DNA of 64,000 bases. It comes from Shinella granuli (GTDB lineage Bacteria; Pseudomonadota; Alphaproteobacteria; Rhizobiales; Rhizobiaceae). The translations under genes were made by a program, and so were the position numbers. The notes below the pieces were generated by a model. That model ran no database searches, was not told where the DNA came from, and worked only from the letters and a program-made list of their open reading frames with translations. The DNA is taken from assembly GCF_004341885.1 (NCBI RefSeq), contig NZ_SLVX01000005.1, forward strand, positions 124,001-188,000, given 5' to 3'. Below, piece after piece: positions 14,277 through 34,989 of the stretch (position 1 is the stretch's first letter; each line of letters opens with the position of its first letter).

Positions 14277-14296
14277 TCCGGTCGCGTGATCGAAAC

Positions 14297-14356
14297 GCGG
14301 TCCCTATGGGACCGCACGAAAGGCGCCCGGCCTCCCCTGCTGGCGGAGGGCCGGGC
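14297..14356 (-). other. Two consecutive hairpins after the betaine-type binding protein gene
   Basis: GCGGTCCC and GGGACCGC (14297-14304, 14308-14315) form a perfect 8-bp stem with a three-base loop; GCCCGGCC and GGCCGGGC (14325-14332, 14349-14356) form a second stem. Both lie between the binding-protein stop and the ATPase start. They probably shape differential expression in the operon; neither has a convincing T-tract. Confidence 0.65.
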
Positions 14357-14364
14357 CTTGCGCG

Positions 14365-15330
14365 CTACTTCTTGATCCAGTCGGACCAGCGCGCTTCGTT
14401 CGCCGCCATCCACTCGGCGACCACCTCGGAGACCTTCTTGCCGTCGAGGTCCACCTTGGTGATCATCGCCCCCATCTCGTCATTGTTGACATTGAACGCC
14501 TTGATGGCGGCATAGGCGCCCGGCCACTTGTCCTTGAGGCCGGACCAGCCGACCTTCCAGATCGGGCCGAAGGGCTTGCCGCAGTCATAGGCGGCATCGG
14601 GGTTCACGCCGGCCGCCGGGTCCTCGTAGCATTCCTTCGAATAGGGCGGGAACTCGACCCACTCGCCCTGGTACTTGGCCGGCGCCCAGTGCGGCGCATA
14701 GATCCACAGCAGGATCGGCGCCTGGCGCTGGTAGGCGCTTTCCAGCTCCGCGAAGAGCGCGGCGTCCGTGCCGGCATGGATCACCTCGAAGGGCAGGTCC
14801 AGCGCCTCGACGCGCTCGTCGTCGAAACCGCCCCAGGTGACGGGGCCGCCGAGATACCGGCCTTTTGGCGCGGTCTCCGGAATCGAGAAGGCTTCCGCGC
14901 AGGCTTCGCTCTTCAGCGCTTCCCAGTTCGGCAGGCCGGGGCATTTCTCCTTCATATAGGCCGGATACCACCACTCTTCCTTGGCCTGCATGCCGGTCTC
15001 GCCGAAATTCTCGACCTTGCCGGTGGCCGTCGCGGCGTCCATCGCGTCGCGGCCGGTGGTCTCCCACATCTCCATGGCGACGTGCAGGTCGCCGGTCTCC
15101 AGGCCCGCGAACTGCGCGAGATAGTCGGCCTGGACATAGTCGACGGAATAGCCGGCCTTCTTCAGCACCTCGCCCATGATTTCCGTGGTGATGAGCTGGC
15201 CCGTCCAGTCGTGCAGCGTCAGCTTGATCGGATCGGTGGATTCCTGCGCCGCCGCGGGCGCGATCGTGAAGGCCGCGGACAGGCACAGCGTCGCGGCGAA
15301 CAGTCCTGACAGGCGAATAGGTTGAAACAT
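14365..15330 (-). CDS. Glycine betaine-type ABC transporter substrate-binding protein
   Basis: Periplasmic OpuAC/ProX-family receptor, 321 aa, with a Sec signal peptide ending at about residue 28 (PAAAQ). Typical features are TLHDWTGQLITTEIMGEVLKKAGYSVDYVQ at the start of the mature part, the GDLHVAMEMWE motif and several Trp residues (WWYPAY, WGGFDD, WIYAPHW) of the kind that cage quaternary ammonium groups. First gene of the operon with ATPase, double permease, kinase and demethylase. Ligand is probably betaine, choline or a related methylated amine; proline betaine is also possible. Confidence 0.93.
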   Translation of the reverse strand: MFQPIRLSGLFAATLCLSAAFTIAPAAAQESTDPIKLTLHDWTGQLITTEIMGEVLKKAGYSVDYVQADYLAQFAGLETGDLHVAMEMWETTGRDAMDAATATGKVENFGETGMQAKEEWWYPAYMKEKCPGLPNWEALKSEACAEAFSIPETAPKGRYLGGPVTWGGFDDERVEALDLPFEVIHAGTDAALFAELESAYQRQAPILLWIYAPHWAPAKYQGEWVEFPPYSKECYEDPAAGVNPDAAYDCGKPFGPIWKVGWSGLKDKWPGAYAAIKAFNVNNDEMGAMITKVDLDGKKVSEVVAEWMAANEARWSDWIKK

Positions 15331-15463
15331 GCGTGATCTCCCGGTCGCACTTTGAAGTCGATGCTTTCTGATGCGCCGGATGCCGTTCCCCGTACTTTTG
15401 TATCTGTCGGCCTGCGCACGGAGCCGATCACACGCTGGATGAAAGCGGCTGTCAATCCTGAAA

Positions 15464-15508
15464 TGTGGCTTTTTCTGCCTTTGTGACCGAATTTGCGGCT
15501 TTCTTGCC
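15464..15508. promoter_or_regulatory. Direct repeat in the divergent promoter region
   Basis: TGTGGCTTTTTCTGCC (15464-15479) and TGCGGCTTTCTTGCC (15494-15508) are similar and start 30 bp apart, in the 197-bp gap between the betaine-type binding protein (minus) and the DeoR gene (plus). This is a reasonable site for the DeoR regulator to control both sides. No other obvious element was seen in the gap. Confidence 0.35.
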
Positions 15509-15527
15509 AGATGATCCGTCTAGGATT

Positions 15528-16322
15528 ATGAAGCAGGAAACGCATGCGGACACGACGACGATGAACCACTCCAAACGCCACAACGACATTCTGAGGCTGC
15601 TCCAGCAGGACGGCACGGTGACGATCGCCGACCTCGCCAAGAAACTCGACGTTTCGCTGGAAACCGTGCGGCGGGACATCAAGCCGCTGACGACGAACGG
15701 CACCGTGCTGAAGATGCACGGCGCCGTGGCGCTGCCCTCCGTGGTGGGCGAAGCGCCCTTCGAAAAGCGCATGCGCGAGAACAGCGAGGCGAAGAAGGCG
15801 ATCGCCGTCGCCATGGCCGCGACGATCCGCGACGGTGATTCGATCATGCTCGATACGGGCACGACGACGAGCTACCTCGCCCGCGAGTTGCTCGGCCACC
15901 GGCGGCTGACGGTCGTCACCAACTCCTCCGACATCGCGCGCACGCTTTCGACGGTCAACGACAACCGCGTCTACATGGCGGGCGGTGAGCTGCGCAGCGA
16001 CAATGGCGCGGCCTTTGGCGTCTCGGCGATCGAGTTCATCAACCATTTCACCGTCGGCCATGCGGTCATTTCCACGGGCGCGATCGATGCCGCGATCGGC
16101 GTGATGGACTACGACCTGGAGGAAGCGGAATTCGCGCGCGCCGTGGTCACGCGCGGCAAACGGGCCGTCGTCGTCACCGACCACACGAAGTTCGGCCGGC
16201 AGGGGCTGGTGCGCGTCTGCGAATTCAGCATGCTGACCGATCTCTTCACCGACAAGGTGCCGCCCCGCGATGTCTCCGCCTCGCTGAAGGCGGCCGGCGT
16301 CAACGTCACGCTGGCGCGCTGA
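15528..16322 (+). CDS. DeoR-family transcriptional regulator
   Basis: Cytoplasmic regulator, 264 aa. The N-terminal winged HTH is HNDILRLLQQDGTVTIADLAKKLDVSLETVRRDIKPL (about residues 16-55), and the C-terminal DeoRC sensor domain shows DSIMLDTGTTTSYLARELL and FGRQGLVRV. Start is uncertain: GTG 15465, ATG 15528 or ATG 15561 are in frame; I used 15528, which has AGGATT just before it. The gene diverges from the betaine-type importer operon and is its likely regulator. The effector of most family members is a sugar phosphate, which fits awkwardly with a betaine importer unless the kinase product is sensed. Confidence 0.88.
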   Translation: MKQETHADTTTMNHSKRHNDILRLLQQDGTVTIADLAKKLDVSLETVRRDIKPLTTNGTVLKMHGAVALPSVVGEAPFEKRMRENSEAKKAIAVAMAATIRDGDSIMLDTGTTTSYLARELLGHRRLTVVTNSSDIARTLSTVNDNRVYMAGGELRSDNGAAFGVSAIEFINHFTVGHAVISTGAIDAAIGVMDYDLEEAEFARAVVTRGKRAVVVTDHTKFGRQGLVRVCEFSMLTDLFTDKVPPRDVSASLKAAGVNVTLAR

Positions 16323-16701: not shown

Positions 16702-18015
16702 CTAGTAGGCGCTTTCGTAGGCGGCGCAGATCTCCGCCTGCGTCTTGCCCGAGAGATAGGCGATCTCGCCTTCCTTGTGCTTGACATAGACGTCGGCAAA
16801 GCCCTCGGGGAACCAGCCGCAGACCGTCGCATTGCCGCGGAACCGCTGGAGCGCGGCCTCCAGCGTCTGCGGCAGGCGCACATAGCCGCGCGCGGCCAGC
16901 GCCTCGACGCCCAGCAGCGACAGGTCCTCCTGCGTCGCCTCCGGCACGGCCAGCCCCTCCTCGATGCCCTGCACGCCGGCATGCACAATGGCGGCGAGCG
17001 CCAGATGCGGATTGGCCGCGCCGTCCGCGGCGCGGAACTCGAAGTTGAACTGGGCCGCGCGGGCGATGTCGCTGATGTCGGAAACCGGGCAGATGCGCAC
17101 CGAGGCCTCGCGATCGCGGAAACCGAGATTGTTGAAAGCGGCGCTCCAGCGATGCGGGGTGAGGCGCAGGTAGGAGACGACGCTCGGCGCCGTGATGGCA
17201 ATGATCGAATCAAGATATTTCAGGATGCCGGCAACGAATTTTCCGGCGACATCGGAGAGTTCGTGCTTGCCGGCCGGGTCATGGGTGACCGGATTGCCGG
17301 CCGCATCCAGCATGCTCATATGCACATGCACGCCGTTGCCGACGCCCGCGGAATCGCGGATCGGCGTGAAGGTCGGGTCGTAGCCGAGCTCGCGGGCGAC
17401 GAGGCCGACGAGTTCGCGGGTGATCAGCGAATGGTCCGCGATGGTGACGCCCTTCTGCGGACCCATCGTCACCTCGAACTGGCCGGCGCCGAACTCCTTG
17501 AGGATGGTGTCGGGCGTGACGCCCGCCTCCCGCATCGCCGCGATGATCGCCTCGCAGAAATGCCGCTCCTCCTGGAACCCGCCGAGCGTGAAGGCCTTGC
17601 CGATATCGGAGACGAGGTGCTTGATCTGGAACTCGTGCTCGAAGGCGCCGTAGAGCGTAACGCCCGCCACCCTTTGCAGACGATCGAGCGCCGTTTCCAG
17701 GATCGAGCGCGTGCAGAACTCCCACGGCCGGCCATCGGTATAGCGGATGTTGCCGATGACGAAATTCTCGTTCGGCGCCCCCTCCTCGCTCTCGATGCTG
17801 ACGCGTGTCGCGGGATCGGGAATGAGCACGAGGTCGCCGAGCGAGCCGAACGGGCTTTCGGCGATGTTGTCGAAGCAGGTGATCTGCACATTGGTCGGCG
17901 TCCAGCCGACGCCGCGCTTCAGGCGTTTGTCCATCTGTGCCAGCGGAAAGGCCTTGCCGCGCACCTTGCCAGAAAGGTCGCCGCAGCAGGCGACCATCAT
18001 TTCCTCACGTTTCAT
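16702..18015 (-). CDS. Divergent glutamine synthetase family ligase
   Basis: ATP-dependent amine-glutamate ligase of the GlnA fold, 437 aa. Catalytic landmarks are recognisable: YGAFEHEFQI (metal-binding Glu pair region), EFGAGQFEVTMGP, GNGVHVHMSM (the GxGxHxHxS loop) and VVSYLRLTPHRW. The usual NRxxxxRI becomes FRDREASVRI, and the adenylylation region is not conserved, so this is not housekeeping GlnA. Relatives include gamma-glutamylpolyamine synthetases. Start at MKREEM (18015) has GGGGA upstream and overlaps the RpiR stop by 11 nt. Context with amidases and an aminotransferase suggests gamma-glutamylation of an imported amine. Confidence 0.88.
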   Translation of the reverse strand: MKREEMMVACCGDLSGKVRGKAFPLAQMDKRLKRGVGWTPTNVQITCFDNIAESPFGSLGDLVLIPDPATRVSIESEEGAPNENFVIGNIRYTDGRPWEFCTRSILETALDRLQRVAGVTLYGAFEHEFQIKHLVSDIGKAFTLGGFQEERHFCEAIIAAMREAGVTPDTILKEFGAGQFEVTMGPQKGVTIADHSLITRELVGLVARELGYDPTFTPIRDSAGVGNGVHVHMSMLDAAGNPVTHDPAGKHELSDVAGKFVAGILKYLDSIIAITAPSVVSYLRLTPHRWSAAFNNLGFRDREASVRICPVSDISDIARAAQFNFEFRAADGAANPHLALAAIVHAGVQGIEEGLAVPEATQEDLSLLGVEALAARGYVRLPQTLEAALQRFRGNATVCGWFPEGFADVYVKHKEGEIAYLSGKTQAEICAAYESAY

Positions 18016-18901
18016 CGGCGTCCCCGTTGATCTGGTCATAACCCGGCATCGAAAAGCGGATGCCGTCCCAATCCTTGATGCGTTTCTGCGTCGCCTCCCA
18101 GTCGGCCTCCGAGACGCGCACGATCAGCGCCTCGACCAGCGCCATGGCGGCGGCCACCGTATCCCAGGCCGTGCCGGCATCGATCGGCAGCGCGACGATA
18201 TGATCGGCGCTGCGCGCGGCCGGCGACATCCACTTGTCGGTGACGACGACGATGGTCGCGCCGCGCTTCTTGGCGATCGTCTCGGCAAGGCGCGCGAGGC
18301 TGAGCTGGTAGCGCCGGAAATCGAACAGCAGCACGACGTCCTTCTTGCGCATGCGCAAGACGTGCTCCGGCCACATTTCCGGATTGTCGGACATGTGGTA
18401 GATGCCGCTGCGGATCTGGCGCAGGTGGATCGACAGGAACGCGGCGACATTGTCGCTGACGCGCCCGCCGAGCAGGAAGATGTTGCGCGAGGGATCGGCG
18501 AGCAGGTCGGCGAGAATGTCGAACTGCGCCTGCGACACCGTCGCCGTCATCTCCTGCATGACCGCCGAGACGCGCGCCACATATTCCGACAGGAATTCCG
18601 AATGGCCGACCGGCTTCTGGCTCGATTTCAGGTCGAGCGGCGAGCGCTGCCCTTCCTTCAATTCGGTGATCAACTGGCGCTGCAGGTCCTGGAAGCCGCC
18701 GCAGCCGATCTTGCTGACGAAGCGGGTGATCGAGGGTGCGCTGACCCCGGTCTTGGCCGCCAGCTCCTGGATGCTTTCGAGGCCCGTGAAGGGATAATCG
18801 GCAAGAATGGCATTGGCGATCTTGCGCTCGCTGGCGGTGAGCTGCGCTGCGGCATCGCGGATCCTCGTGCGGATCGTCGTCGACGATTTCCCATCGCTCA
18901 T
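18005..18901 (-). CDS. RpiR-family transcriptional regulator (HTH plus SIS domain)
   Basis: Regulator of 298 aa: N-terminal HTH_6 (LTASERKIANAILADYPFTG, then ELAAKTGVSAPSITRFVSKIG) and C-terminal SIS domain (NIFLLGGRVSDNVAAFLSIH; KRGATIVVVTDKWMSPAARSADHIVALP). SIS domains often sense phosphosugars, but RpiR-type regulators also control amino-acid and amine pathways. First gene of a two-gene minus-strand operon with the GS-like ligase and divergent from the N-formylglutamate-amidohydrolase-like operon, so it probably controls both. Confidence 0.92.
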   Translation of the reverse strand: MSDGKSSTTIRTRIRDAAAQLTASERKIANAILADYPFTGLESIQELAAKTGVSAPSITRFVSKIGCGGFQDLQRQLITELKEGQRSPLDLKSSQKPVGHSEFLSEYVARVSAVMQEMTATVSQAQFDILADLLADPSRNIFLLGGRVSDNVAAFLSIHLRQIRSGIYHMSDNPEMWPEHVLRMRKKDVVLLFDFRRYQLSLARLAETIAKKRGATIVVVTDKWMSPAARSADHIVALPIDAGTAWDTVAAAMALVEALIVRVSEADWEATQKRIKDWDGIRFSMPGYDQINGDADET

Positions 18902-18952
18902 TGGCGTTCGTTCCCCTGATTGGTTCGGATATTCGCGCCATGAAAAAAATTA

Positions 18953-18976
18953 GTCAAACGGAAAAATGCAATTGAC
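18953..18976. promoter_or_regulatory. Inverted repeat in RpiR divergent promoter
   Basis: GTCAA (18953-18957) and TTGAC (18972-18976) form a widely spaced inverted repeat inside an AT-rich stretch (18936-18994) that must hold promoters for both RpiR (minus) and the plus-strand operon. TTGACT on the plus strand could itself be a -35 element. Assignment as the RpiR operator is tentative. Confidence 0.3.
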
Positions 18977-19048
18977 TATGATCGAAAAATTTCCTTGACT
19001 GCCTGTCAGGAAAGCCCGACCCGCCGGGCCCGTTACGGATCCCATTCC

Positions 19049-19855
19049 ATGCTCAGGTTCGCAGACCGCGACACGACCAGATTGCTGCAGACGGGCGACC
19101 CGGAGCCGGTGGAACGGATCAACCCTGCCGGCGCCTCGTCGATCTTCCTGACCTGCGAACATGCCGGCCGCGCCATCCCGGCTGCGCTCGGCGATCTCGG
19201 CATTCCCGCCGCGGAGATGGATCGCCACATCGCCTATGACGTCGGCGCGGAGGGCGTCGCCCGCAGCCTGGCCGAGCGCCTCGACGCCGCGCTCATCCTG
19301 CAGCGCTACAGCCGCCTCGTCATCGACTGCAACCGGCCCTTCGAGGCGAAGGATTGCGTCGTCGAAGAGAGCGACGGCACGCCGGTGCCGGCAAATGCCG
19401 ATATCAGCGATCTCGACCGCCGCTGCCGCTTCGTGGAAATCCACCAGCCGCTGCACGAGGCGATCGCCGCAGCGCTCGACCAGCGCCAGGCGAGCGGAAG
19501 GCCGCTCCTCCTCGTCTCGGTGCACAGTTTCACGCCGGTCATGCGCGCAACGGGCGCCACACGGGATTTCGAACTCGGCCTGCTCTACAACCGCGACGCC
19601 CGCCTTGCCGAGCGGCTTGCGCAGACGTTCCGCGCCGCCAATCCGGACGTCACCGTCAAGCTCAACGCACCCTATCACGTCGACGACATCTCCGACTACA
19701 CGATCCCGGTGCACGGCGAGCGGCGCGGCATAGCGCATGTGCTTCTGGAAGTGCGCAACGACCTCATCAACGATGCCCGCGGGCAAGAGGAATGGGCAGG
19801 CCGCCTCGCCGGCCCCCTCCGCCTTGCGGCAGACAGCCTCGAAGGAAACGCCTGA
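19049..19855 (+). CDS. N-formylglutamate amidohydrolase family hydrolase
   Basis: Zinc-type amide hydrolase of the HutG/FGase family (PF05013), 268 aa. Signature residues are in SIFLTCEHAGRAIPAALG and MDRHIAYDVGAEGVARSLAE, with RYSRLVIDCNRP and LLVSVHSFTPVM farther on. Start chosen at ATG 19049 (MLRFADRD); a TTG at 18995 is an in-frame alternative. The stop overlaps the next ATG (TGATG). No other hut genes are nearby, so the substrate is probably not histidine-derived N-formylglutamate but another N-acyl or gamma-glutamyl amino compound of this pathway. Confidence 0.87.
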   Translation: MLRFADRDTTRLLQTGDPEPVERINPAGASSIFLTCEHAGRAIPAALGDLGIPAAEMDRHIAYDVGAEGVARSLAERLDAALILQRYSRLVIDCNRPFEAKDCVVEESDGTPVPANADISDLDRRCRFVEIHQPLHEAIAAALDQRQASGRPLLLVSVHSFTPVMRATGATRDFELGLLYNRDARLAERLAQTFRAANPDVTVKLNAPYHVDDISDYTIPVHGERRGIAHVLLEVRNDLINDARGQEEWAGRLAGPLRLAADSLEGNA

Positions 19856-20505
19856 TGGCCGCTGACCATCCAACCACCCGCGACGTGCCGCTCGATCCGG
19901 CCGCCTCCGCCATCCTCTTCATCGACGTGCAGAACTTTTCCGTGCGCCGCGAGGGCGGTGAGTTCAAGGATGTTTCCGACGCCGATATCGCGGGAAAATA
20001 CGGCTATTATTTCAAGCGCATCCACGAGGTCGCGATCCCGAACATGCAGCGCCTCATCGCCGGCTTCCGCAAGGCCGGCATCGAGGTGCTGCACACGACG
20101 ATCGAGAGCCTGACGAAGGACGGCCGCGACCGCAGCCTGGACTACAAGATCACCGGCTTCAACGTGCCGAAGGGCTCGTGGGACGGCAAGGTCATCGACG
20201 AACTGGCGCCGCTGGAGGACGAGATCGTCTTCCCGAAGAGCTCGTCCAGCGTCTTCGTCTCCACCCATATCGACTACATCCTGCGCAATCTCGGCGTAAA
20301 ACAACTCGTGCTGTGTGGACTTCTGACCGACCAGTGCGTGGAATCGGCCGTGCGCGATGCCTGCGACCTCAACTATCTCGTGACGCTGGTGCCCGATGCC
20401 TGCGGCACCTATTCGCAGGAGCGCCACGACACCTCGCTGAGCGCCATCAAGGGCTATTGCCGGCAGGTCTCGACCGATGCGCTGCTGAAGGAGATCGGGC
20501 AGTAA
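19855..20505 (+). CDS. Isochorismatase-like cysteine hydrolase (first copy)
   Basis: Cysteine amidohydrolase of the isochorismatase-like fold, 216 aa. The catalytic triad is visible as Asp24 (LFIDVQN), Lys128 (VFPKSSS) and Cys161 (LLTDQCVESAV). The family includes N-carbamoylsarcosine amidase, nicotinamidase, ureidoacrylate and biuret hydrolases. It shares the GRDRSL and PKG/LP elements with the protein at 25220-25891, so the two are paralogues flanking the Liv importer. Longer reading frame upstream is excluded by the TGATG overlap start. Likely hydrolyses an amide or carbamoyl group in the imported compound. Confidence 0.88.
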   Translation: MAADHPTTRDVPLDPAASAILFIDVQNFSVRREGGEFKDVSDADIAGKYGYYFKRIHEVAIPNMQRLIAGFRKAGIEVLHTTIESLTKDGRDRSLDYKITGFNVPKGSWDGKVIDELAPLEDEIVFPKSSSSVFVSTHIDYILRNLGVKQLVLCGLLTDQCVESAVRDACDLNYLVTLVPDACGTYSQERHDTSLSAIKGYCRQVSTDALLKEIGQ

Positions 20506-20626
20506 AGCCCGCAGACGAACCGACGGGACGGAAACGAGGAGCATCCGAAAGCGGGCCGCAGAACACAACAAAAGGCCGGGCCGCGCGACACTTCACTGCC
20601 GAAAGGCATCAAAAAGGGGAACGACC

Positions 20627-21799
20627 ATGATGAAGACTTCCAAACTGCTTCTGGCGGCCGCAAGCCTTGCGCTCGCCGCCTCCGCGGCCTTTGCCGAGGA
20701 CGACAAGATCGTCATCGGCGGCGCGCTCTCGATGACGGGCATCCAGGCCCCGCTCGACACGCCCGGCTACAACGGCGCGCAGGTCGCGGTGAAATATCTC
20801 AACGACAATGGCGGCGTGCTCGGCAAGCAGGTCGAGTTCATCAACATCGACGGCAAGTCCGATCCGGTGACGGTCGGCAACGTCGCCGTCGAGCTGATCG
20901 ACAAGGGCGCGCAGGTCATCGTCGCGCCCTGCGATTTCGATTTCGGCTCGCCGGCGAGCCGCGAGGCACAGTCGGCCGGCCTCGTCGGCATCTCGACCTG
21001 CGCCTCCGATCCGCTCTACTCTTCCTGGTCGCTCGGCGACAAGCAGTTCACGCTCTCCATGTGGAACACCACGATGGGCGCGACGGCAGCCGATTTCGCC
21101 TTCACGGAGAAGGGCTGGAAGACGGCCTATGTCGTCACCGACCAGTTCATCGCCTACACCAAGTCGCTGTCGAAGTATTTCGTCGAGCAGTTCAAGGCCG
21201 ATGGCGGCGAGATCATCCTGGAAGACACCTATACGAACGGCGACAACAACTTTTCCGCCCAGCTCGCGCGTCTCCAGGCGCTCGGCAAGAAGCCGGACGT
21301 GATCTTCGTCTCGTCCTACGGCACGGATATCGGCGTGATCATCCGCGCGCTGCGCGAAGTCGGCTATGACGCGCCGATCCTCGGCGGCGATGCCTATGAC
21401 GACCCGGCGATGCACGAGGCGCTCGGCGAAAAGTTCGGCAACGACGTCTATTTCGTCACCCATACCTGGATGGGAACGGGAGCGGACCCGGAAATGGAGA
21501 AGTTCATCGGTCTCTACAAGGAGATGTTCGGCAACGACCCGGACACGTCCTTCGTCTCGACGGGCTGGGACACGATCATGATGATCGCCGAGGCGATCAA
21601 GGCGGCCGGCACGACGGAAGGCGGCGCGCTTGCCAAGGCGCTGGAAGATGGCCAGTTCAAGCTGCTGACCGGCGACCTCGACTACGGCACGGCCGAAGAG
21701 GGCCACGTTCCGAACAAGGCGGCGGCGCTCATCGAGCTGAAGGGCGGCAAGCCGACTTTCGTGGGCTGGCGCAAGCCGGAATCCCTGCCGAAGCCCTGA
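20627..21799 (+). CDS. LivK-type ABC transporter substrate-binding protein
   Basis: Periplasmic binding protein of the branched-chain amino acid class (Peripla_BP_6), 390 aa. Sec signal peptide residues 1-23 (cut after AFA), then DDKIVIGGALSMTGIQAPLDTPGYNGAQVAVKYLN, the N-lobe landmark. AAAAGGGGAACG precedes the ATG. LivK relatives in rhizobia bind amides, urea, aromatic acids and other compounds beyond Leu/Ile/Val. Followed by a hairpin and the two ATPases and two permeases of the same importer. Confidence 0.93.
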   Translation: MMKTSKLLLAAASLALAASAAFAEDDKIVIGGALSMTGIQAPLDTPGYNGAQVAVKYLNDNGGVLGKQVEFINIDGKSDPVTVGNVAVELIDKGAQVIVAPCDFDFGSPASREAQSAGLVGISTCASDPLYSSWSLGDKQFTLSMWNTTMGATAADFAFTEKGWKTAYVVTDQFIAYTKSLSKYFVEQFKADGGEIILEDTYTNGDNNFSAQLARLQALGKKPDVIFVSSYGTDIGVIIRALREVGYDAPILGGDAYDDPAMHEALGEKFGNDVYFVTHTWMGTGADPEMEKFIGLYKEMFGNDPDTSFVSTGWDTIMMIAEAIKAAGTTEGGALAKALEDGQFKLLTGDLDYGTAEEGHVPNKAAALIELKGGKPTFVGWRKPESLPKP

Positions 21800-21810
21800 T
21801 CGTACTTTAC

Positions 21811-21833
21811 GGGCCGGCCGCCAAAGCCGGCCC
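21811..21833 (+). other. Intercistronic hairpin after livK-type gene
   Basis: GGGCCGGC (21811-21818) and GCCGGCCC (21826-21833) form a perfect 8-bp stem with a seven-base loop, 11 bp after the binding-protein stop and 18 bp before the LivG-type start. Probable mRNA stabiliser or attenuator. Confidence 0.7.
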
Positions 21834-21851
21834 ATCACCTTCGGAAAAGCC

Positions 21852-22586
21852 ATGTCTGAAACGCGCCTCGCGGTAAACGACGTGTCGGTGGAATTCACCG
21901 GCCTCCGCGCCCTCGACCATGTGTCGCTCTCCGTCCTCACCGGCGAGGTCGTCGGCCTGATCGGTCCGAACGGCTCGGGCAAGACGACGCTCATCAACGC
22001 CATCACCGGCCAGGTAAAGCTGGCGGGCGGCACGATCACCGCCGGCGACATAACCCTTTCCGGCCTCTCGCCGCGTAGGATCGCCCTTGCCGGCGTCAGC
22101 CGCTCCTTCCAGATCGTGCGCCTTTTCAACACGATGACGGTGCTGGAGAACGTCGAGGCCGCAGCCCTGGCGAAGGGCGCCTCCCGCGGGGCCGCCACCG
22201 AGCGCGCGAAAAGCCTTCTCGACGAACTCGGCCTCTCGGCGAAGGTGGACGAGCTGGGCGAGAGCCTCAGCTACGGCGACAAGCGCCGCGTCGAGATCGC
22301 AAGGGCGCTCGCCGCCGAACCGCGCTTCCTGCTGCTCGACGAACCCGCCGCCGGCATGAACGACGCGGAGACGGAAACCCTGCTGCACACCCTCTCCGAA
22401 CTGCCGAGGAAACGCGGCCTCGGCCTTCTCATCATCGATCACGACATGGGCCTCATCATGCGCCTCTGCCACCGGCTGCATGTGCTCGCCTCCGGCCGCA
22501 CCATCGCGGAAGGGGACGCCGCCCATGTCCGCAGCCATCCTGATGTCATCGAGGCCTATCTCGGCAAGGGGGCGGCCCATGCTTGA
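21852..22586 (+). CDS. LivG-type ABC transporter ATP-binding protein
   Basis: Cytoplasmic ATPase of the LivG class, 244 aa. Walker A GPNGSGKTTLINAIT, the LivG-specific GVSRSFQIVRLFNTMTVLENV, signature LSYGDKRRVEIARAL and Walker B LLLDEPAAGMN are present. It overlaps the LivF-type gene by 8 nt. Pairs with LivF, LivH and LivM to power uptake of the ligand bound by the 20627-21799 product. Confidence 0.94.
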   Translation: MSETRLAVNDVSVEFTGLRALDHVSLSVLTGEVVGLIGPNGSGKTTLINAITGQVKLAGGTITAGDITLSGLSPRRIALAGVSRSFQIVRLFNTMTVLENVEAAALAKGASRGAATERAKSLLDELGLSAKVDELGESLSYGDKRRVEIARALAAEPRFLLLDEPAAGMNDAETETLLHTLSELPRKRGLGLLIIDHDMGLIMRLCHRLHVLASGRTIAEGDAAHVRSHPDVIEAYLGKGAAHA

Positions 22587-23286
22587 GATCACCGGCCTCT
22601 CCGTCAATTACGGCACGATCCGCGCGGTGCGCGGCATCAGCCTCACCGTCGCCAGGGGCGAGCTGGTGAGCCTGCTCGGCGCGAACGGCGCGGGCAAATC
22701 CTCGACCATCAAATGCATCGCCGGCGCGCTGAAGGCGGCGGGCGGCTCGATCGTGCTCGAAGGCCAGGACATCACCGCGGCCAATCCCGAGCAGGTCATC
22801 CGTGCCGGCCTTGCCACCGTGCCGGAAACCCGCGACGTCTTCCCGGACCTGACGGTCGCCGAAAACCTCATGCTCGGCGCCTATATCCACCGGCGCGACC
22901 AGGCCGGCAACCGGCAGAACCTCGAAAGGCTGCACACGCTCTTCCCGCGCCTCGCCGAGCGGTCGAACCAGCCGGCCGGCACGCTTTCGGGCGGCGAGCA
23001 GCAGATGCTCGTCATCGCCCGCGCGCTGATGGCGCGCCCGCGCGTCCTCCTCCTCGACGAGCCCTCGCTGGGTCTCGCGCCCGCGATCGTCGAGCGCATC
23101 TTCGAGATGATCGAGACACTCAAAAAGTCCGGCCTCACCATCCTGCTCGTCGAGCAGAACGTGAACCAGGCGCTCGCCGTCGCCGACCGCGCCTATGTCA
23201 TGCGGCTCGGTGCCATCGTCGCATCCGGCACCGCCGAGGAGATCCGCTCGGGAAGCGATCTCAGCGCACATTATCTGGGAGGCTGA
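22579..23286 (+). CDS. LivF-type ABC transporter ATP-binding protein
   Basis: Second ATPase of the importer, 235 aa. Walker A GANGAGKSSTIK, signature LSGGEQQMLVIARALM, Walker B LLLDEPSLGLAP and the LLVEQNVNQAL H-loop variant typical of LivF. Translation most likely starts at ATG 22579 (MLEITGLSVNYG), inside the end of the LivG gene; the longer frame upstream has no homology. Confidence 0.94.
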   Translation: MLEITGLSVNYGTIRAVRGISLTVARGELVSLLGANGAGKSSTIKCIAGALKAAGGSIVLEGQDITAANPEQVIRAGLATVPETRDVFPDLTVAENLMLGAYIHRRDQAGNRQNLERLHTLFPRLAERSNQPAGTLSGGEQQMLVIARALMARPRVLLLDEPSLGLAPAIVERIFEMIETLKKSGLTILLVEQNVNQALAVADRAYVMRLGAIVASGTAEEIRSGSDLSAHYLGG

Positions 23287-23291
23287 TTCCG

Positions 23292-24182
23292 ATGGCTTTC
23301 GCGATCCAGTTCGTCATCGACGTCCTCAGCCTCGGCGGGGCCTATGCCCTCATGGCGCTCGGCCTCGTCATCATCTACGGCATCCTGCGGCTGGTGAATT
23401 TCGCCTATGGCGAACTCATCATGGTCGCCGGCTACACCATGTATCTTTCCAGCGGCTCGGGCCTGCCCTGGCTCGTCATGGCCGCACTCGCCGTCGCCAT
23501 GGCGGTGCTCTTCGGCATCCTCACCGACTATGCCGCCTTCCGCCCGGTGCGCGCCAAATCGGTGACGGCGGTGCTGATCACCTCCTTCGCCTTCTCCAAC
23601 CTGTTGCAGAACGCCGCCCTCCTCTTCATCTCGCCGCGCCCGCGCAACGTGCCCCTGCCGGACATCTTCTCCCAGACCGTCTCGATCGGCGGCGCGATCA
23701 CGCCGGTGCGCAACCTCATCACCATCGCCGCCTCCATCGTGCTGCTCGCCGCCGTCGCCTTCCTGATGCGCAGGACGACGCTCGGCATCGCCATGCGCGC
23801 GGCGGCGACCAACTTCACCATGGCCCGCATGCTCGGCGTGCCGGCGAACCTCATCATCTCCTCGGCCTTCGCCCTCTCCGGCTTCCTCGCCGGCGTCGTC
23901 GGCATCCTGTGGATCGGCCGCATCGGCACGGTCGTGCCGGGCGTCGGGCTGGAGCCGCTGCTCGTCGCCTTCATCGCCACCGTGATCGGCGGCATGCGCA
24001 GCCTTCCGGGCGCCGTCGTCGGCGGCTTCCTCTTGGCGCTGATCGATACGACGCTCAACTACACCCTGTCGCAGGATCTCCTGAAGTTCCGCGACGCCTT
24101 CACCTTCAGCCTCGTCATCCTGATCCTGCTCTGGCGCCCGCAGGGCCTCATCAAGGGCCCGGCGAGCGGACAGCGGACCTGA
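23292..24182 (+). CDS. LivH-type ABC transporter permease
   Basis: Inner-membrane permease of the BPD_transp_2 class, 296 aa with about eight hydrophobic segments. The N-terminal SLGGAYALMALGLVIIYGIL and VNFAYGELIMVAGY segments are the usual LivH landmarks, and GVVGILWIGRIGTVVPGVGLEPLLVAFIA marks the C-terminal half. Start MAFAIQ lies 5 bp after the LivF stop; the frame open further upstream is out of register with homology. Confidence 0.93.
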   Translation: MAFAIQFVIDVLSLGGAYALMALGLVIIYGILRLVNFAYGELIMVAGYTMYLSSGSGLPWLVMAALAVAMAVLFGILTDYAAFRPVRAKSVTAVLITSFAFSNLLQNAALLFISPRPRNVPLPDIFSQTVSIGGAITPVRNLITIAASIVLLAAVAFLMRRTTLGIAMRAAATNFTMARMLGVPANLIISSAFALSGFLAGVVGILWIGRIGTVVPGVGLEPLLVAFIATVIGGMRSLPGAVVGGFLLALIDTTLNYTLSQDLLKFRDAFTFSLVILILLWRPQGLIKGPASGQRT

Positions 24183-24194
24183 GGAGCGGAGACC

Positions 24195-25223
24195 ATGAAA
24201 CATTCCTATCTCACCGCCCTCATCCTCATCGCCGTCATCGCCGCCATCGCCATCGGCAGCCAGCTCATCGGCATCCGCCTCTACGACCGGATCGCCACCA
24301 ACCTGCTGATCTCGCTGGTCCTCGTCGTCGGCCTGCAGACCTTCATGGGCAATTCGGGCCTGCTCTCCTTCGCCCATATCGGCTTCATGGGCCTCGGCGC
24401 CTACACCTCCGCCGTGCTGACCATCCCGGCCCAGATGAAGGGCATGGCGCTGCCGGACCTCTACGACTTCATGAAGGTGGTGGAGATCTCGCCGCTGCTG
24501 GCCATGCTGGCTGCGGGCGTGCTTGCCGCGGTCGTGGCGGCCGTCGTCGCCTATCCGCTGATGCGGCTTTCGGATGCGGCCTCCGTCATCACCTCCTTTG
24601 CGCTGCTCGTGGTGCTCTACACCGTCATGAACAACTGGAGCGCCTTCACCAACGGCCCGCGCACGCTCTTCGGCCTGCCGAAGACAACGGACCTGCCGAT
24701 CGCCGCCATCGTCGCGGCCGTCGTGGTGGTCGTCGCGCTGCTCTTCAAGGAATCGCGCACCGGCAAGCTGCTCCGCGCCTCCCGAGAGGACGAGGTCGCC
24801 GCCGCCGCGCTCGGCGCGAACATCCCGCACCTGCGCTGGCGTGCCTTCATCCTCGCCGCCTTCATCGCCGGCATCGGCGGCGCTCTCTGGGGCCATTTCA
24901 TCACCTCCTTCGCGCCGAAGGCCTTCTACCTGAAGGAGACCTTCCTCATCATCACCATGCTGGTGATCGGCGGGGCGAACACGGTGACCGGCGCCGTCGC
25001 CGGCACGATCCTCATCACGTTTGCCTATGAAGGCCTTCGCGGCACCGAAAGCGCGCTGAACGCCACCGCCATCGGCGCCGGCCAGGTCGTCGGCCTCACC
25101 GAGATCGTGCTGGCGCTCGCCATGATCGCCGTGATGATCGTCAAGCCCGGCGGCCTCTTCCCGAACCGCGAGATCGGCCACATCCTCACCCGCGCCCGCC
25201 GCAAGAAGGAGACAGTTGCATGA
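24195..25223 (+). CDS. LivM-type ABC transporter permease
   Basis: Inner-membrane permease, 342 aa, ten or so hydrophobic segments. LQTFMGNSGLLSFAHIGFMGLGAYTSA and the loop SREDEVAAAALGANIPHLRWRAFILAAFIAGIGGALWGHF are LivM hallmarks. The stop overlaps the next start by four bases (ATGA), coupling the importer to the second isochorismatase-like gene. GGAGCGGAGACC precedes its ATG. Confidence 0.93.
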   Translation: MKHSYLTALILIAVIAAIAIGSQLIGIRLYDRIATNLLISLVLVVGLQTFMGNSGLLSFAHIGFMGLGAYTSAVLTIPAQMKGMALPDLYDFMKVVEISPLLAMLAAGVLAAVVAAVVAYPLMRLSDAASVITSFALLVVLYTVMNNWSAFTNGPRTLFGLPKTTDLPIAAIVAAVVVVVALLFKESRTGKLLRASREDEVAAAALGANIPHLRWRAFILAAFIAGIGGALWGHFITSFAPKAFYLKETFLIITMLVIGGANTVTGAVAGTILITFAYEGLRGTESALNATAIGAGQVVGLTEIVLALAMIAVMIVKPGGLFPNREIGHILTRARRKKETVA

Positions 25224-25891
25224 GCTGGAAGACCGCCTACCGTTCCTTCTACTACGCCAACGCGGAGGCGCCGGACGACATCGTGCTCGATCCGCAGACG
25301 ACCGCGCTACTCGTCATCGACATCCAGAACACCTATCTCGATCCGAAGGACACGCCGGAAGAGACCGCCCGCTGGCAGCCCTTCTATGATCGCATGCGCA
25401 AAACGGTGATCCCGAACACCGCACGGCTGATCAAGGAATGCCGCAAGCGCAAGGTGGAGGTCATCTTCGCCCGCATCGCCTGCCTGAAGCCGGACGGCCG
25501 CGATCGCTCGCTGAGCCAGAAGAAGCCCGGCTTCAACTACCTGCTTCTGCCGAAGGACCTGCCCGAGGGCCAGGTCGTGCCGGAACTCGAACCGCGTCCC
25601 GACGAGATCGTCATCACCAAGACGACCGACAGCGCGCTGACCGGCACGAACCTCCGCCTGATCCTCCACAATATGGGCATCAAGGACGTCATCTGCTGCG
25701 GCATCTTCACCGACCAGTGCGTCTCCTCCACCGTGCGCAGCCTGGCGGATGAAAGCTTCGGCGTGGTCGTCGTCGACGATTGCGGCGCGGCGGCGACGGA
25801 CGAGCTGCACCGGCGGGAGCTGGAGATCATCAACATGATCTATTGCCACGTCGTCCAGCTTGACGAGGTCCTGACCTTCTTCAAGGAATAG
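25220..25891 (+). CDS. Isochorismatase-like cysteine hydrolase (second copy)
   Basis: Cysteine amidohydrolase, 223 aa, with triad residues Asp34 (LLVIDIQN), Lys134 (IVITKTTDSA) and Cys167 (FTDQCVSSTV). It is clearly related to the 19855-20505 product through the PDGRDRSL segment and overall layout, yet divergent enough to act on a different intermediate. Coupled by ATGA to LivM and followed 10 bp later by the aminotransferase. Candidates within the family are carbamoyl, ureido or amide hydrolysis; the sequence alone does not decide. Confidence 0.88.
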   Translation: MSWKTAYRSFYYANAEAPDDIVLDPQTTALLVIDIQNTYLDPKDTPEETARWQPFYDRMRKTVIPNTARLIKECRKRKVEVIFARIACLKPDGRDRSLSQKKPGFNYLLLPKDLPEGQVVPELEPRPDEIVITKTTDSALTGTNLRLILHNMGIKDVICCGIFTDQCVSSTVRSLADESFGVVVVDDCGAAATDELHRRELEIINMIYCHVVQLDEVLTFFKE

Positions 25892-25901
25892 GGAGAGCGA
25901 C

Positions 25902-27206
25902 ATGTCCGGCCTCTACGCCCGTGAAAGCCGATCGGTCTCGACGATGGCGCATCTGCGGTTCTTTCCGCAGGCGGTGGTCGGCGGAAGCGGCGCGTACCTG
26001 ACCGGCGACGACGGGCGCAAACTCCTCGATTTCGCCGCCTCCTGGGGCGCAGCGAGCCTCGGCCATTCGCATCCCGCCATCCGCGAGGCGGTGAACCGCG
26101 CGCTCTGCGACCAGGCGGGCGCAAGCTATCTCTCCACGGCCAACGAGCCCTCGGTGCTGCTCGCCGAAAAGCTGCTCTCCCTCGTGCCGGAACGCGCCCG
26201 CGGCCGCGTCTGGTTCGGCCATTCCGGCTCGGACGCCAACGAGACGGTCGCCCGCATGGTCGTCGCCGCTACCGGCCGGCCGCGCATCCTCGCCTTTAAC
26301 GGCGCCTATCACGGAGGCACCGTCGGTTCCATGGCCGTCTCCGGCCACCCCGCCCAGCAGGGTGCGCGGGCGAAGGACCTGACGCTGGTGCCCTACCCAA
26401 ACAGCTACGCCGCCGGCAGCCCCGAAGCCGCGAAGGACGCCGCCCTCGCTTATCTCGAAAAACTCCTTGCGACCGAGATCCCGCCGCAAGAGATCGCCGC
26501 CTTCTTCATCGAGCCGATCCAGTCGGACGGCGGCATGCTGGTGCCGCCGGAAGGGTTTTTCAAGGACGTGGAAGCGCTCTGCCGCACACACGGCATCCTC
26601 ATCGTCTCAGACGAGGTGAAGGTCGGCCTTGGCCGCAGCGGACGCTTCAACGCCTTCGAGCATGCCGGCATCGAGCCCGATATCGTCGTCTTCGGCAAGG
26701 GCCTCGGCGGCGGCCTGCCGGTCTCGGCCGTGGTCGGTCCGGAGGCGATCCTGAACCACGCCGTCGCCTTCTCGCTGCAGACCGTGCACGGCAATCCGGT
26801 CTGCGCCGCCGCGGCGCTCGCCGTGCTGCAGACCATCGAGCGCGACAATCTCGTCGCCAATGCGGAACGGACAGGACGCATGCTGCGCGAGGCGCTCGAC
26901 CGCCTCGCCACCCGCCATGCCCTGATCGGCAATGTGCGCGGCCGGGGCCTCGCCCTCGGCGTCGAGCTTGTGGCGAATGGCGCACCGGCCCTGCGGCAGA
27001 CGGCGTTGGCGGTCTACCGCGCCTTCCAGCTCGGCCTCGTGCTCTACTATGTCGGCGTCAACTCCAACGTGCTGGAATTCACGCCGCCGCTGACCCTGAC
27101 GGAGGCGGAAGCGCAGGAGGGTGTCGCCATTCTCGACCAAGCGCTCGCAGACGTCGCGGCGGGCCGGGTCGACGAGGCGCTGCTTGCCGATTTCGCCGGC
27201 TGGTAG
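25902..27206 (+). CDS. Class III PLP-dependent aminotransferase
   Basis: Omega-type aminotransferase (or glutamate-1-semialdehyde aminomutase relative), 434 aa. PLP-site residues are visible: GSDANETV (phosphate binding), Asp237 in IVSDEVKVG, and Lys266 in VVFGKGLGGGLPVSAV. The C-terminus has YYVGVNSNVLEFTPPLTLT. Members transfer amino groups from beta-alanine, GABA, taurine, diamines and similar terminal amines. Last gene of the plus-strand operon; convergent, 3 bp apart, with the Zn-hydrolase gene of the next operon. It likely removes the amine released by the upstream amidases. Confidence 0.92.
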   Translation: MSGLYARESRSVSTMAHLRFFPQAVVGGSGAYLTGDDGRKLLDFAASWGAASLGHSHPAIREAVNRALCDQAGASYLSTANEPSVLLAEKLLSLVPERARGRVWFGHSGSDANETVARMVVAATGRPRILAFNGAYHGGTVGSMAVSGHPAQQGARAKDLTLVPYPNSYAAGSPEAAKDAALAYLEKLLATEIPPQEIAAFFIEPIQSDGGMLVPPEGFFKDVEALCRTHGILIVSDEVKVGLGRSGRFNAFEHAGIEPDIVVFGKGLGGGLPVSAVVGPEAILNHAVAFSLQTVHGNPVCAAAALAVLQTIERDNLVANAERTGRMLREALDRLATRHALIGNVRGRGLALGVELVANGAPALRQTALAVYRAFQLGLVLYYVGVNSNVLEFTPPLTLTEAEAQEGVAILDQALADVAAGRVDEALLADFAGW

Positions 27207-27209
27207 GCT

Positions 27210-28454
27210 TCAGGCGGCCGAAAGACGAAGCGCCACGCCCAGCAGGATGCGCGCACCGGCGATGATATGCGCGTCGGAAACGAACTCCGCCTCGTTGTGG
27301 CTGATGCCGTTGCGGCAGGGCACGAAGATCATCGCCGCCGGGGCGACCCGACCCACGAAGAGCGCATCGTGAAAGGCGCCCGACACCATCGGCCGGCTGC
27401 GGATCGCGAGCGCCCGGCACGTCTCCTCGATCGCCGCCGTCACCTCCGGGGCGAACCGGCCGGGAGCCATGTCGACGCGCAGTTCGATGGCCGTTTCGCA
27501 GCCCCACCGCGCGCCCGCGGCCTCGCATTCCTCCCTCACGCGCCGGTCCATCGCCGCAAGCGCCGCCGCGTCCGGATGGCGGATGTCGACGGTGAAGGAG
27601 ACGCGGCTCGGGATGACGTTGATGGAGCCCGGCTCGGCGGTGATGCGGCCGACCGTCAGCCGCGCTGCGGGATCGGCCGGCATGATATCGCCCTGGATGC
27701 GCGCGATGGCGGCGGCCGCCGCACCCATCGGGTCCTTGCGGAATTCCAGCGGCGTGGTGCCGGCATGGGCCGCCTCGCCGGAAAAGGCGATCTCCAGCCA
27801 TTTCGTGCCCTGAACGGCGGTGACCACGCCGATCGGCACGTCCTCGCGTTCGAGAACGGGGCCTTGCTCGATATGCAGTTCGACGAAGGCGGAGATGGCG
27901 TGCCCGATGGGCCGCATGCGGGCTTCCGGCAGCGCTTGCAGCGTCGCCGCCAGTTCGTCGGCGAGCAGCGCGCCGTCCGTCGCCCGCGCCCGGCGCCAAT
28001 CCGAAAGGTTACCCGCGCCAGCGAAGGCCATGGAGCCCATGCAGCCCGGCGAGAAGCGGCTGCCCTCCTCGTTGGTGAAGGCGACGACCTCGATGGCGCG
28101 GTCGGTCTCGACGCCCGCATCGGCGAGCGCTTCCAGTACCTCGAAGGCGCTGAGCGTGCCGAGCGCGCCGTCGTAGCGGCCGCCGGTCGGCTGGCTGTCG
28201 AGATGGCTGCCGATGAGGAGCGGCGGCAGCGTCGCATCCCGGCCGTCGCGGCGGAGGAAAAGATTGGCCGCCTCATCCTGGAAGACGGTGAAGCCCCGCG
28301 CGAAAGCGCGCTCGGCCAGCAAGCGGCGGGCGGTACGGTCTTCGACGCTCAGGGCCTGCCGGTTGACGCCGCCGGCGGGCGTCGCGCCGATGGCCGCGAA
28401 ATCGGCGATGGATGTGAGGAGGCGCGCGGGATTGACCTCCGGCATTGTGCTCAT
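27210..28454 (-). CDS. Zn-dependent M20-family hydrolase (N-carbamoyl amino acid/ureidopropionase-like)
   Basis: Metal-dependent amidase of the AllC/HyuC/AmaB group, 414 aa. Metal-site motifs are intact: GSHLDSQPTGGRYDGALG (His, Asp), TNEEGSRFSPGCMGS (Glu), FVELHIEQGPVLE (His) and CRNGISHNEAEF (His). Related enzymes split N-carbamoyl-L-amino acids, beta-ureidopropionate or allantoate. Start at MSTMPE (28454) gives an ATGA overlap with the BtpA-like gene, so it belongs to the minus-strand importer operon that begins near 34932, despite lying beside the Liv cluster. Possible role: releasing an amine from a ureido intermediate. Confidence 0.9.
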   Translation of the reverse strand: MSTMPEVNPARLLTSIADFAAIGATPAGGVNRQALSVEDRTARRLLAERAFARGFTVFQDEAANLFLRRDGRDATLPPLLIGSHLDSQPTGGRYDGALGTLSAFEVLEALADAGVETDRAIEVVAFTNEEGSRFSPGCMGSMAFAGAGNLSDWRRARATDGALLADELAATLQALPEARMRPIGHAISAFVELHIEQGPVLEREDVPIGVVTAVQGTKWLEIAFSGEAAHAGTTPLEFRKDPMGAAAAAIARIQGDIMPADPAARLTVGRITAEPGSINVIPSRVSFTVDIRHPDAAALAAMDRRVREECEAAGARWGCETAIELRVDMAPGRFAPEVTAAIEETCRALAIRSRPMVSGAFHDALFVGRVAPAAMIFVPCRNGISHNEAEFVSDAHIIAGARILLGVALRLSAA

Positions 28455-29284
28455 CGGCCGAGGCCTGCGATGAAGCGCTTCACCCGGTCCGGATCGACCG
28501 CGTTCCACCAGACGCCGTCATATTTGAGGGCGCTGGCGATGATCACGCCGTCGGCGACGGCGAGGATGTCGTTGGCATTGTCATGGGTGACGCCGCTGCC
28601 GACCAGCGTCGGCAGCGAGGCGGCCTCCTTGATCATGCGGATATAGCCGAGATCGGCCGTATGGCCGGTGCGCTGGCCGGTGGCGATGACGACGTCGGCA
28701 TCGAAGAAGACGAGGTCCTTGACCTGCTCCTCGACCGGCCGGTCGGCGACGATGGCGTGCGCGCCGTGCTTGACATGGGCGTCGGCGAAGATGCGGATGC
28801 CTCTGGCACGCAGTTGCGCCCGGTAGCGCATGGCGCGGGCGGATTCGCCCTCCACGAAGCCCTCGTTGGCGACATAGGCATTGGCCCACTGATTGACGCG
28901 GATGAACGAGGCCGAGGAGGCCGAGGCGATGGCAAGCGCCGGGATCGCCGCATTGGCAAGCACGTTGATGCCGATCGGGCGGCCGAGCTCGCGGCGGATG
29001 CGGTCGGCGATGACGGCCATGTGGGCGGAGGTCTCGTGGCCGATCTGGTCCGGCTTCGAGAACGGCACGTCGCCGTGGTTCTCGACGATCAGCGCGTCGC
29101 AGCCGCCGGAAAGATAGGCGCGCGCATCCGAAAGGCCGCGCTCGTAGATCGCCTCCACGCCTTCGTCGTCATAGCGCGGGGCGCCCGGCAGCGGGAGCAG
29201 GTGCACCACGCCGATCACCGGCTTGTCGCGCCCGAAAAGCGTCTTCAGCGTATCCTTGTCCTGCCGTCCGATGGAGTTGCTCAT
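28451..29284 (-). CDS. BtpA/SgcQ-family TIM-barrel protein
   Basis: Protein of 277 aa in the BtpA family (PF03437). Typical beginnings of the barrel are KPVIGVVHLLPLPGAPRYD and the CDALIVENHGDVPF strand; later GQRTGHTADLGYIRMIKEA and LPTLVGSGVTHDN. BtpA was first linked to photosystem I stability, while SgcQ-type members sit in sugar operons with unknown activity. Here it is within a sugar-importer operon, 5 bp after a PfkB kinase, which favours a phosphosugar-directed enzyme; catalytic function is not known. Confidence 0.86.
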   Translation of the reverse strand: MSNSIGRQDKDTLKTLFGRDKPVIGVVHLLPLPGAPRYDDEGVEAIYERGLSDARAYLSGGCDALIVENHGDVPFSKPDQIGHETSAHMAVIADRIRRELGRPIGINVLANAAIPALAIASASSASFIRVNQWANAYVANEGFVEGESARAMRYRAQLRARGIRIFADAHVKHGAHAIVADRPVEEQVKDLVFFDADVVIATGQRTGHTADLGYIRMIKEAASLPTLVGSGVTHDNANDILAVADGVIIASALKYDGVWWNAVDPDRVKRFIAGLGR

Positions 29285-29289
29285 GGCGA

Positions 29290-30201: not shown

Positions 30202-30226
30202 GGGGCTGTTTCCTGGAACCTCCGGT

Positions 30227-30991: not shown

Positions 30992-31019
30992 GGTAGCTCC
31001 TTGAACGGTTGGCCGGCGC

Positions 31020-32111: not shown

Positions 32112-32112
32112 G

Positions 32113-33920: not shown

Positions 33921-33950
33921 GTTCGATGGCCCCTGGAGGAGGTTCCGGCT

Positions 33951-33976: not shown

Positions 33977-33990
33977 AACGGCGGTTCGGC

Positions 33991-34932: not shown

Positions 34933-34989
34933 TTTGATGTTCCCCTTGTTTGATGCCGTTGGCGGCAACCGGAATTTACGAGAGGCATT

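Follow-up and report, generated by a model that had tools for sequence, protein, structure and literature searches.

A conserved operon of Shinella granuli with a racemase homologue and a candidate gamma-glutamyl route for amino acid amides

An operon of Shinella granuli brings together a glutamine synthetase (GS)-like ligase, an N-formylglutamate amidohydrolase (FGase)-family enzyme, two isochorismatase-like cysteine amidases (CysH1 and CysH2), an ATP-binding cassette (ABC) importer of the Liv type and a class III pyridoxal phosphate (PLP) enzyme, which raises the question as to what compound these proteins take up and degrade. The operon lies in a stretch of 64,000 nucleotides (contig NZ_SLVX01000005.1, positions 124,001 to 188,000), hereafter the window, which is part of contig 5 of the 6.59 Mb genome. 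The answer that we favour, with a probability of roughly one half, is that alpha-amino acid amides are taken up and hydrolytically broken down via a gamma-glutamyl shuttle. We infer the reactions, their order, the substrate class and the regulation of this scheme; the genes and their families, the conserved linkage, the kinship to racemases and the residue patterns are established. According to open reading frame (ORF) and Pfam scans and tblastn, all genes listed in the preliminary description are present with intact frames, and their coordinates agree. The GS and RpiR genes overlap on the minus strand and face the other genes on the plus strand:

16702..18039, minus strand: GS-family gamma-glutamyl-amine ligase (PF00120 226 bits, PF16952 77.4 bits)
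18005..18901, minus strand: RpiR-family regulator with HTH_6 and SIS domains (PF01418, PF01380), adjoining GS in the 21 full-order loci described below
18941..19000, no strand: conserved intergenic block, candidate RpiR operator/promoter (alignment of the window and 20 loci)
19049..19855, plus strand: FGase-family amidohydrolase, proposed gamma-glutamyl-amino-acid hydrolase (PF05013 154.5 bits)
19855..20505, plus strand: CysH1, isochorismatase-like cysteine amidase (DGRDRSL...K and TDQC signature)
20627..21799, plus strand: periplasmic binding protein of the HAAT/Liv type (PF13458 180.9 bits)
21852..22586, plus strand: LivG ATPase (ORF, tblastn; named ABC ATP-binding protein in Shinella sp. 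HZN7)
22579..23286, plus strand: LivF ATPase (ORF, tblastn; length agrees with the HZN7 annotation)
23292..24182, plus strand: LivH permease (ORF, tblastn; length agrees with the HZN7 annotation)
24195..25223, plus strand: LivM permease (ORF, tblastn, HZN7 annotation)
20627..25223, plus strand: the Liv importer as a whole
25220..25891, plus strand: CysH2, cysteine amidase paralogue of CysH1 (PF00857 119.5 bits)
25902..27206, plus strand: PLP-dependent homologue of alpha-amino-epsilon-caprolactam (ACL)/amino-acid-amide racemases (relatives annotated as aspartate aminotransferase family)

The GS gene probably starts near 18015, as annotated on the closely related Shinella plasmid (1314 bp in HZN7). 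For the FGase, the ATG at 19049 (268 residues, as in the HZN7 annotation) is a more likely start than the TTG at 18995, because the first 21 residues are modelled with a predicted local distance difference test score (pLDDT) below 50 and because the TTG sits in the end of the conserved intergenic block.

Do these genes belong together? The preliminary description had proposed a search for co-occurrence of the families in other genome neighbourhoods. Scanning contigs with the window FGase gave 38 loci, in which the window proteins were then placed by tblastn. The complete order GS-RpiR-FGase-CysH1-binding protein-LivGFHM-CysH2-class III PLP enzyme recurs in 21 of these (L004-L024), from Rhizobiaceae, Phyllobacteriaceae, Stappia and Dongia, and since the order is kept so often, the gene set is a real conserved pathway module, beyond chance. 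L025 has the full order minus CysH2, and six loci (L026-L028, L030-L032) have GS, RpiR, FGase and CysH1 in different surroundings; two short contigs carry GS with FGase (L039) or RpiR with FGase (L041), and eight loci have the FGase without the remaining core genes. Partial or rearranged versions, Liv transporters included, are found on plasmids of Sulfitobacter, Paracoccus, Phyllobacterium, Maritalea, Nitratireductor, Ensifer and Shinella. The module proteins share 91-99% identity with their counterparts in Shinella yambaruensis (L004) and 97-100% with those on the Shinella sp. HZN7 plasmid (L042). We found no literature on this operon or on the linkage of the racemase to the module, in a coverage mostly without subscription papers that is no proof of absence.

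The most informative member of the module is the PLP enzyme. Its closest solved matches are 5m46/5m49 (1e-154; deposited as aminotransferase class-III), to the latter of which it is 58% identical, followed by the A. obae ACL racemase 2zuk/3dxv (3e-148) and the amino acid amide racemase 6gio (4e-134). We take 5m46 to be the Rhizobium freirei ACL racemase, and 6gio presumably comes from Ochrobactrum anthropi. Alanine/serine racemase (1e-85) and other racemases or epimerases (around 1e-70) come next, and transaminase-named entries start at 7e-70 (7vno, hypothetical) and continue at 1e-62 and weaker. Deposited variants carry Ala at the Lys of DEVK (5m4d) or at the Asp of QSDGG (5m4b), and the window enzyme keeps both residues, as does the racemase fragment of L082. 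We also built a midpoint-rooted tree of 44 rows from near-orthologues and 12 other class III enzymes, several of these outside rows being long-branched; rows more than 80% identical to the window enzyme (all but three), fragments and duplicate loci had been omitted beforehand. The Asp is present in all 33 rows with DEVK (SDGG 28, ADGG 4, CDGG 1), and a single branch with support 99/99 splits off the window enzyme and 31 other DEVKVG rows; the sister of these, on a long branch, is the L178 enzyme (43% identical; QSDGG, DEVKTG). The enzyme also matches Pfam Aminotran_3, but it reaches no NCBIfam cut-off for class III transaminases (GABA, AcOrn and others) among the 25 models listed of 69 matched, the best score being 346.4 against 608 bits. 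By these matches the supposed class III aminotransferase is a homologue of ACL/amino-acid-amide racemases, with racemisation itself as a prediction, and the aspartate aminotransferase family name appears to be a mis-annotation. The final transamination step of the preliminary description is therefore not supported, and GABA-type transamination is rejected, as the closest matches, the residue pattern and the tree are all on the ACL racemase side.

Closer relatives of the characterised racemases occur in the same kind of neighbourhood. The racemase of L087, from the same family, is 80.4% identical to 6gio (349/434), and that of Shinella zoogloeoides (L053) is 85.0% identical to 5m49 (367/432; E 6e-244 to A. 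obae 2zuk); both lie within contiguous RpiR-CysH-GS-FGase-racemase sets with divergent Liv genes. At E<=1e-140 the racemase profile matched 10 of 385 genomes of the class and 8 of 398 genomes of the phylum, two of them shared, giving 16 genomes including the window's own. Among the 16 racemase loci fetched outside the window, the ligase is present in 9, the FGase in 10, the Liv binding protein in 10, RpiR in 8 and CysH1 in 7, and 14 of the 16 racemase-matching genomes carry a CysH.

What would the other enzymes do? Among solved structures the ligase is by far closest to PA5508 (4hpp; 4.6e-93, next 5.6e-30), and it misses the GGputSyn cut-off (239.6 against 650). Residues for glutamate and metal binding, for ammonia handling and the flap Glu are known from GlnA. 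Comparing 12 module ligases with the genome's own GlnA (L139), the glutamate/metal motifs are kept, a HRWSA-like motif replaces the flap Glu motif GYEAP, and FDGSS is lacking; this loss of the ammonia-handling motifs beside intact glutamate/metal motifs argues for an amine ligase rather than a glutamine synthetase. Such enzymes have been classed as glutamyl-organic amine synthases, for which no use of ammonium is reported (PMC11335346).

The FGase far exceeds the PF05013 gathering score (154.5 against 28.9 bits). A histidine-route deformylase (HutG) is rejected, with a TIGR02017 score of 22 against a cut-off of 278.75 bits. Fold neighbours of its structure model (mean pLDDT 88.2) include poly-gamma-glutamate hydrolases, and the enzyme is co-encoded with the ligase in the module loci; we regard it as a putative gamma-glutamyl hydrolase. 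PF05013 is given as gamma-glutamylglycine amidohydrolase in a proposed ethanolamine route (PMC9397018). The suggestion that this enzyme strips off a gamma-glutamyl group is the likeliest reading, whereas the statement that the ligase/FGase pair fits no named pathway is not supported: the pair fits a gamma-glutamylation scheme.

The two cysteine amidases are 37% identical to each other, and DGRDRSL, K98, K128 and TDQCV are invariant in 16 aligned members. Alignments with 3kl2, RutB and biuret hydrolase, as printed, agree around the Lys and the Cys but leave DGRDRSL unmatched. Ureidoacrylate hydrolysis as by RutB (TIGR03614, 80.4 and 71.9 against 377.95 bits) and biuret hydrolysis (NF050097, 69.2 and 77 against 370 bits) are both rejected. 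As a guess, the paired arginines of DGRDRSL could bind the glutamyl carboxylate; DGRDR is missing in the CysH1-type enzymes of L188, L191 and L198. At 1e-45, CysH is found in 32 of 289 genomes of the class. The 37 regions surveyed cover 40 of the 46 CysH places, the other six being the window's two or lying within loci fetched earlier. A module-like ligase (at least 30% identity) is present in 18 of 23 CysH1-type loci, and a ligase or FGase in 20 (L196, L197 and L198 have neither in the region); this compares with a module-like ligase in one of nine CysH2-type loci and in none of five loci whose distantly related enzymes lack the signature. CysH2 was not found in L025, L050 and L052-L055, and its varied surroundings elsewhere (seven loci) give no clue to its role.

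The regulator may be tied to the operon through the 60-bp block between RpiR and FGase (18941-19000), which is strongly conserved in the window and in 20 of the 21 full-order loci (L015 was left out of the alignment, and L016 has a run of N inside the block). It holds a 17-nt direct repeat, 76% alike, with 23-nt spacing, and is a candidate RpiR operator/promoter.

Taken together, gene content, kinship and residues make the outline given in the preliminary description the likeliest reading: an amine with an amide group would be imported, gamma-glutamylated and hydrolysed in steps. In our version the amide would be taken in by the Liv-type importer and its D- and L-forms interconverted by the PLP enzyme, a racemisation that must precede acylation, as PLP requires the amine to be free. 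The ligase would then use ATP to join glutamate to the alpha-amine, giving gamma-Glu-NH-CHR-CONH2, whose terminal carboxamide CysH1 would hydrolyse to leave gamma-Glu-amino acid and ammonia. The FGase-family hydrolase would finally release glutamate and the free amino acid, so that the balance would be ammonia and an amino acid gained per one ATP beyond import. RpiR would govern the divergent promoters through the conserved block.

A number of observations weigh against this scheme. We know of no isochorismatase-family enzyme that acts on acyl-amino acid amides, the solved relatives of the binding protein fix no ligand, and fold similarity shows no function. For PA5508 a preference for bulky amines, catecholamines among them, has been reported (PMC6478659), and these are not amino acid amides. 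The racemase can also occur apart from the module: no module gene is near it in L075, L077, L080 and L081 (L077 and L080 are short contigs), L086 has Liv genes only, L078 and L082 (a short contig) have the FGase only, and a CysH match at 1e-40 is absent from the racemase genomes G224 and G338. L134 and L045 lack the racemase near the ligase and have in its place a different class III enzyme, which shares 31-34% identity with that of the window. Outside the Alphaproteobacteria the core is seen without a racemase in the region. Of 398 phylum genomes, 95 have an FGase match at 1e-60; from these we took 20 FGase regions, ten to represent every non-alpha genome and ten at selected alpha places. RpiR, CysH, GS and FGase are together in seven of them (L120, L124, L125, L127, L131, L134, L135), and the other 13 have the FGase without the core set (L121 with a distant GS). 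In the four non-alpha sets (L120, L124, L125, L127), RpiR-CysH-GS-FGase leads into an amino acid permease gene (identified by scan in L120, L124 and L125 and by eye in L127), with no racemase in the region, and the racemase profile at 1e-140 matched no non-alpha genome among the 398. Because of these racemase-free modules and the lack of non-alpha racemase matches, substrates of the core need not be chiral amides.

Could the racemase and the amidases instead act on free amino acid amides, leaving ligase and FGase as a side branch, for example in amine protection or detoxification? Two CysH paralogues could fill two roles, and laboratory cascades link ACL racemase straight to stereospecific amidases, with no glutamylation (PMC7431475). 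However, ligase, FGase and one CysH stand in one row outside the Alphaproteobacteria, and because most CysH1-type loci (the 18 of 23 above) have a module-like ligase, ligase and amidase are no loose pair; we consider this order of events rather unlikely. A second alternative keeps the pathway but takes the substrate to be an alpha-amino lactam or lactone (lysine lactam, ornithine lactam, homoserine lactone or a cycloserine-like ring) instead of a primary amide. The solved isochorismatase-like matches (RutB, biuret hydrolase, N-carbamoylsarcosine amidohydrolase) act on primary amide or ureido nitrogen and are not known to act on rings. In favour of rings, ACL racemases do act on aminolactams (PMC7431475), and alpha-proton exchange by the A. 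obae enzyme extends to homocysteine thiolactone (PMC11391342). L030 also has, past the neighbouring M20/Liv set, a gene of the penicillin amidase family whose PvdQ match is weak (23.8 bits, cut-off 950), but no racemase in its locus. A ring substrate seems to us quite unlikely.

A further alternative is that the operon breaks down a bulky mono- or polyamine of the PA5508 type and that the amidases and the racemase were drawn in for some other task; this would agree with PA5508 being the closest solved ligase and with its reported preference (PMC6478659). We find it improbable: the operon has no amine oxidase or aldehyde dehydrogenase, though the genome's second ligase/FGase locus does have dehydrogenases, and the racemase linkage recurs across several gene arrangements. 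Import, glutamylation and hydrolysis of an amide-bearing amine followed by transamination through a true class III aminotransferase, as the Aminotran_3 match and the product names of annotated relatives would have it, is the most improbable of all, given that the E-values of ACL racemase matches are over 80 orders of magnitude better than those of transaminase-named entries, that the clade keeps the racemase residue pattern and that none of the listed NCBIfam cut-offs is reached.

What would the amide pathway mean more widely? The gamma-glutamyl pathways known to us use oxidative enzymes at the middle step. With a probability just under one half, ACL/amino-acid-amide racemases would have their physiological home in this module: a hydrolytic gamma-glutamyl pathway of wide distribution that degrades D,L-amino acid amides or aminolactams with an amidase in place of the oxidative enzymes, orphan operons of the PA5506-PA5510 type being its racemase-free form. 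In Pseudomonas aeruginosa, PA5506, PA5507 and PA5509 are presumably RpiR, CysH and FGase. The PA5506-PA5509 genes have been termed glutamine synthesis genes (PMC6246594), PA5508 and PA5510 are tabulated in a Crc-regulon paper (PMC6235884), and PA5510 is a mere list entry in a transporter-mutant paper (PMC2542419). ACL racemases serve to make chiral amino acids (PMC7431475), a caprolactam paper merely mentions the racemase (PMC6061476), and no natural role is given in the accessible portions of the literature examined, PMC7431475 among it. If the proposal is true, racemases known mainly as industrial tools would have a natural job in an amino acid amide pathway of soil and marine bacteria, the ligase, amidases and gamma-glutamyl hydrolase would be partner enzymes for biocatalysis, the aspartate aminotransferase mis-annotation would be corrected, and orphan PA5508-type ligase operons would gain a testable substrate class.

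Several neighbouring genes and other loci deserve mention in their own right. A carbamoylase-family gene (27210-28457, minus strand; hydantoinase/carbamoylase 403.9 against a cut-off of 204 bits), absent from the preliminary description, ends three bases past the operon. It belongs to a minus-strand set (27210-34995) of carbamoylase-family M20 hydrolase, BtpA/SgcQ, PfkB kinase, glutamine-amidotransferase-like and phosphotriesterase-like genes and a sugar-type ABC importer (HZN7 names). The M20 (carbamoylase), BtpA and PfkB flank is confined to the Shinella loci L004 and L016 of the 38, so we regard it as a separate neighbour and reject the carbamoylase as a module member. On the other side, glycine-betaine-type ABC genes and DeoR occupy window positions 13251-16322, and their binding protein and DeoR adjoin the module only in L004, L006 and L016 of the 38. 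In Mesorhizobium (L030, 11428-19679), FGase and CysH1 are followed by an M20 deacylase-family gene, another Liv importer and a penicillin-amidase-family acylase. Class III enzymes of about 1010 residues lie near the module ligase in Paracoccus (L045, 13413-16442) and in L134 (3932-6961; APH, M23 and class III domains).

How, then, does the operon compare with known systems? The ACL and amino acid amide racemases (A. obae 2zuk/3dxv, 5m46-5m4d, 6gio) belong to the same clade as the window enzyme and share with it the residues altered in the variants, and near-orthologues of them (80-85%) sit in the same gene neighbourhood; the window protein itself is only 58% identical to 5m49, and its racemisation is a prediction. 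The putrescine (Puu) pathway follows a logic of glutamylation, transformation and deglutamylation, as proposed here, but the window operon lacks its oxidase, aldehyde dehydrogenase, PuuD-type hydrolase and GABA transaminase. PuuA and PuuB are listed alongside the gamma-glutamyl ethanolamine route of C. salexigens and S. coelicolor (GlnA4), in which a GS-like ligase and a PF05013 hydrolase likewise flank the middle transformation (PMC9397018). That middle step is carried out by two dehydrogenases, whereas the window operon has a cysteine amidase, and ORF and Pfam scans found neither the Fe-dependent alcohol dehydrogenase nor the aldehyde dehydrogenase in the operon. A second ligase/FGase locus of the same genome (L217, 5813-14930), with RpiR, a tripartite ATP-independent periplasmic (TRAP) transporter, an aldehyde dehydrogenase (PF00171 404.8 bits) and an Fe-type alcohol dehydrogenase (PF00465 169.6 bits), looks like the ethanolamine version; where it has TRAP, the window operon has the Liv importer and the racemase. 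Fungal FluG and its bacterial halves also pair a GS-like ligase with an amidohydrolase (PMC6478659), but the partner of the window ligase is an FGase. An Amidohydro_2 gene adjoins a ligase in L178 (138-9670, which additionally has CysH and the 43% identical racemase-like enzyme), L073 (9365-13180) and L079 (1862-4373), an arrangement that resembles the two FluG halves. The window CysH enzymes share the isochorismatase-like family with biuret hydrolase and RutB and align with them over the Lys and Cys regions, but they score 69-80 bits against cut-offs of 370-378, with DGRDRSL unmatched. Finally, PA5508 of the PA5506-PA5510 cluster is the closest solved relative of the window ligase, and the RpiR-CysH-GS-FGase-permease order of the four non-alpha loci resembles the presumed PA5506-PA5509 core; these loci differ from the window operon in having neither racemase nor Liv importer. 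We rate the proposed pathway as a variant of the gamma-glutamylation scheme, with an amidase at the middle step and a racemase.

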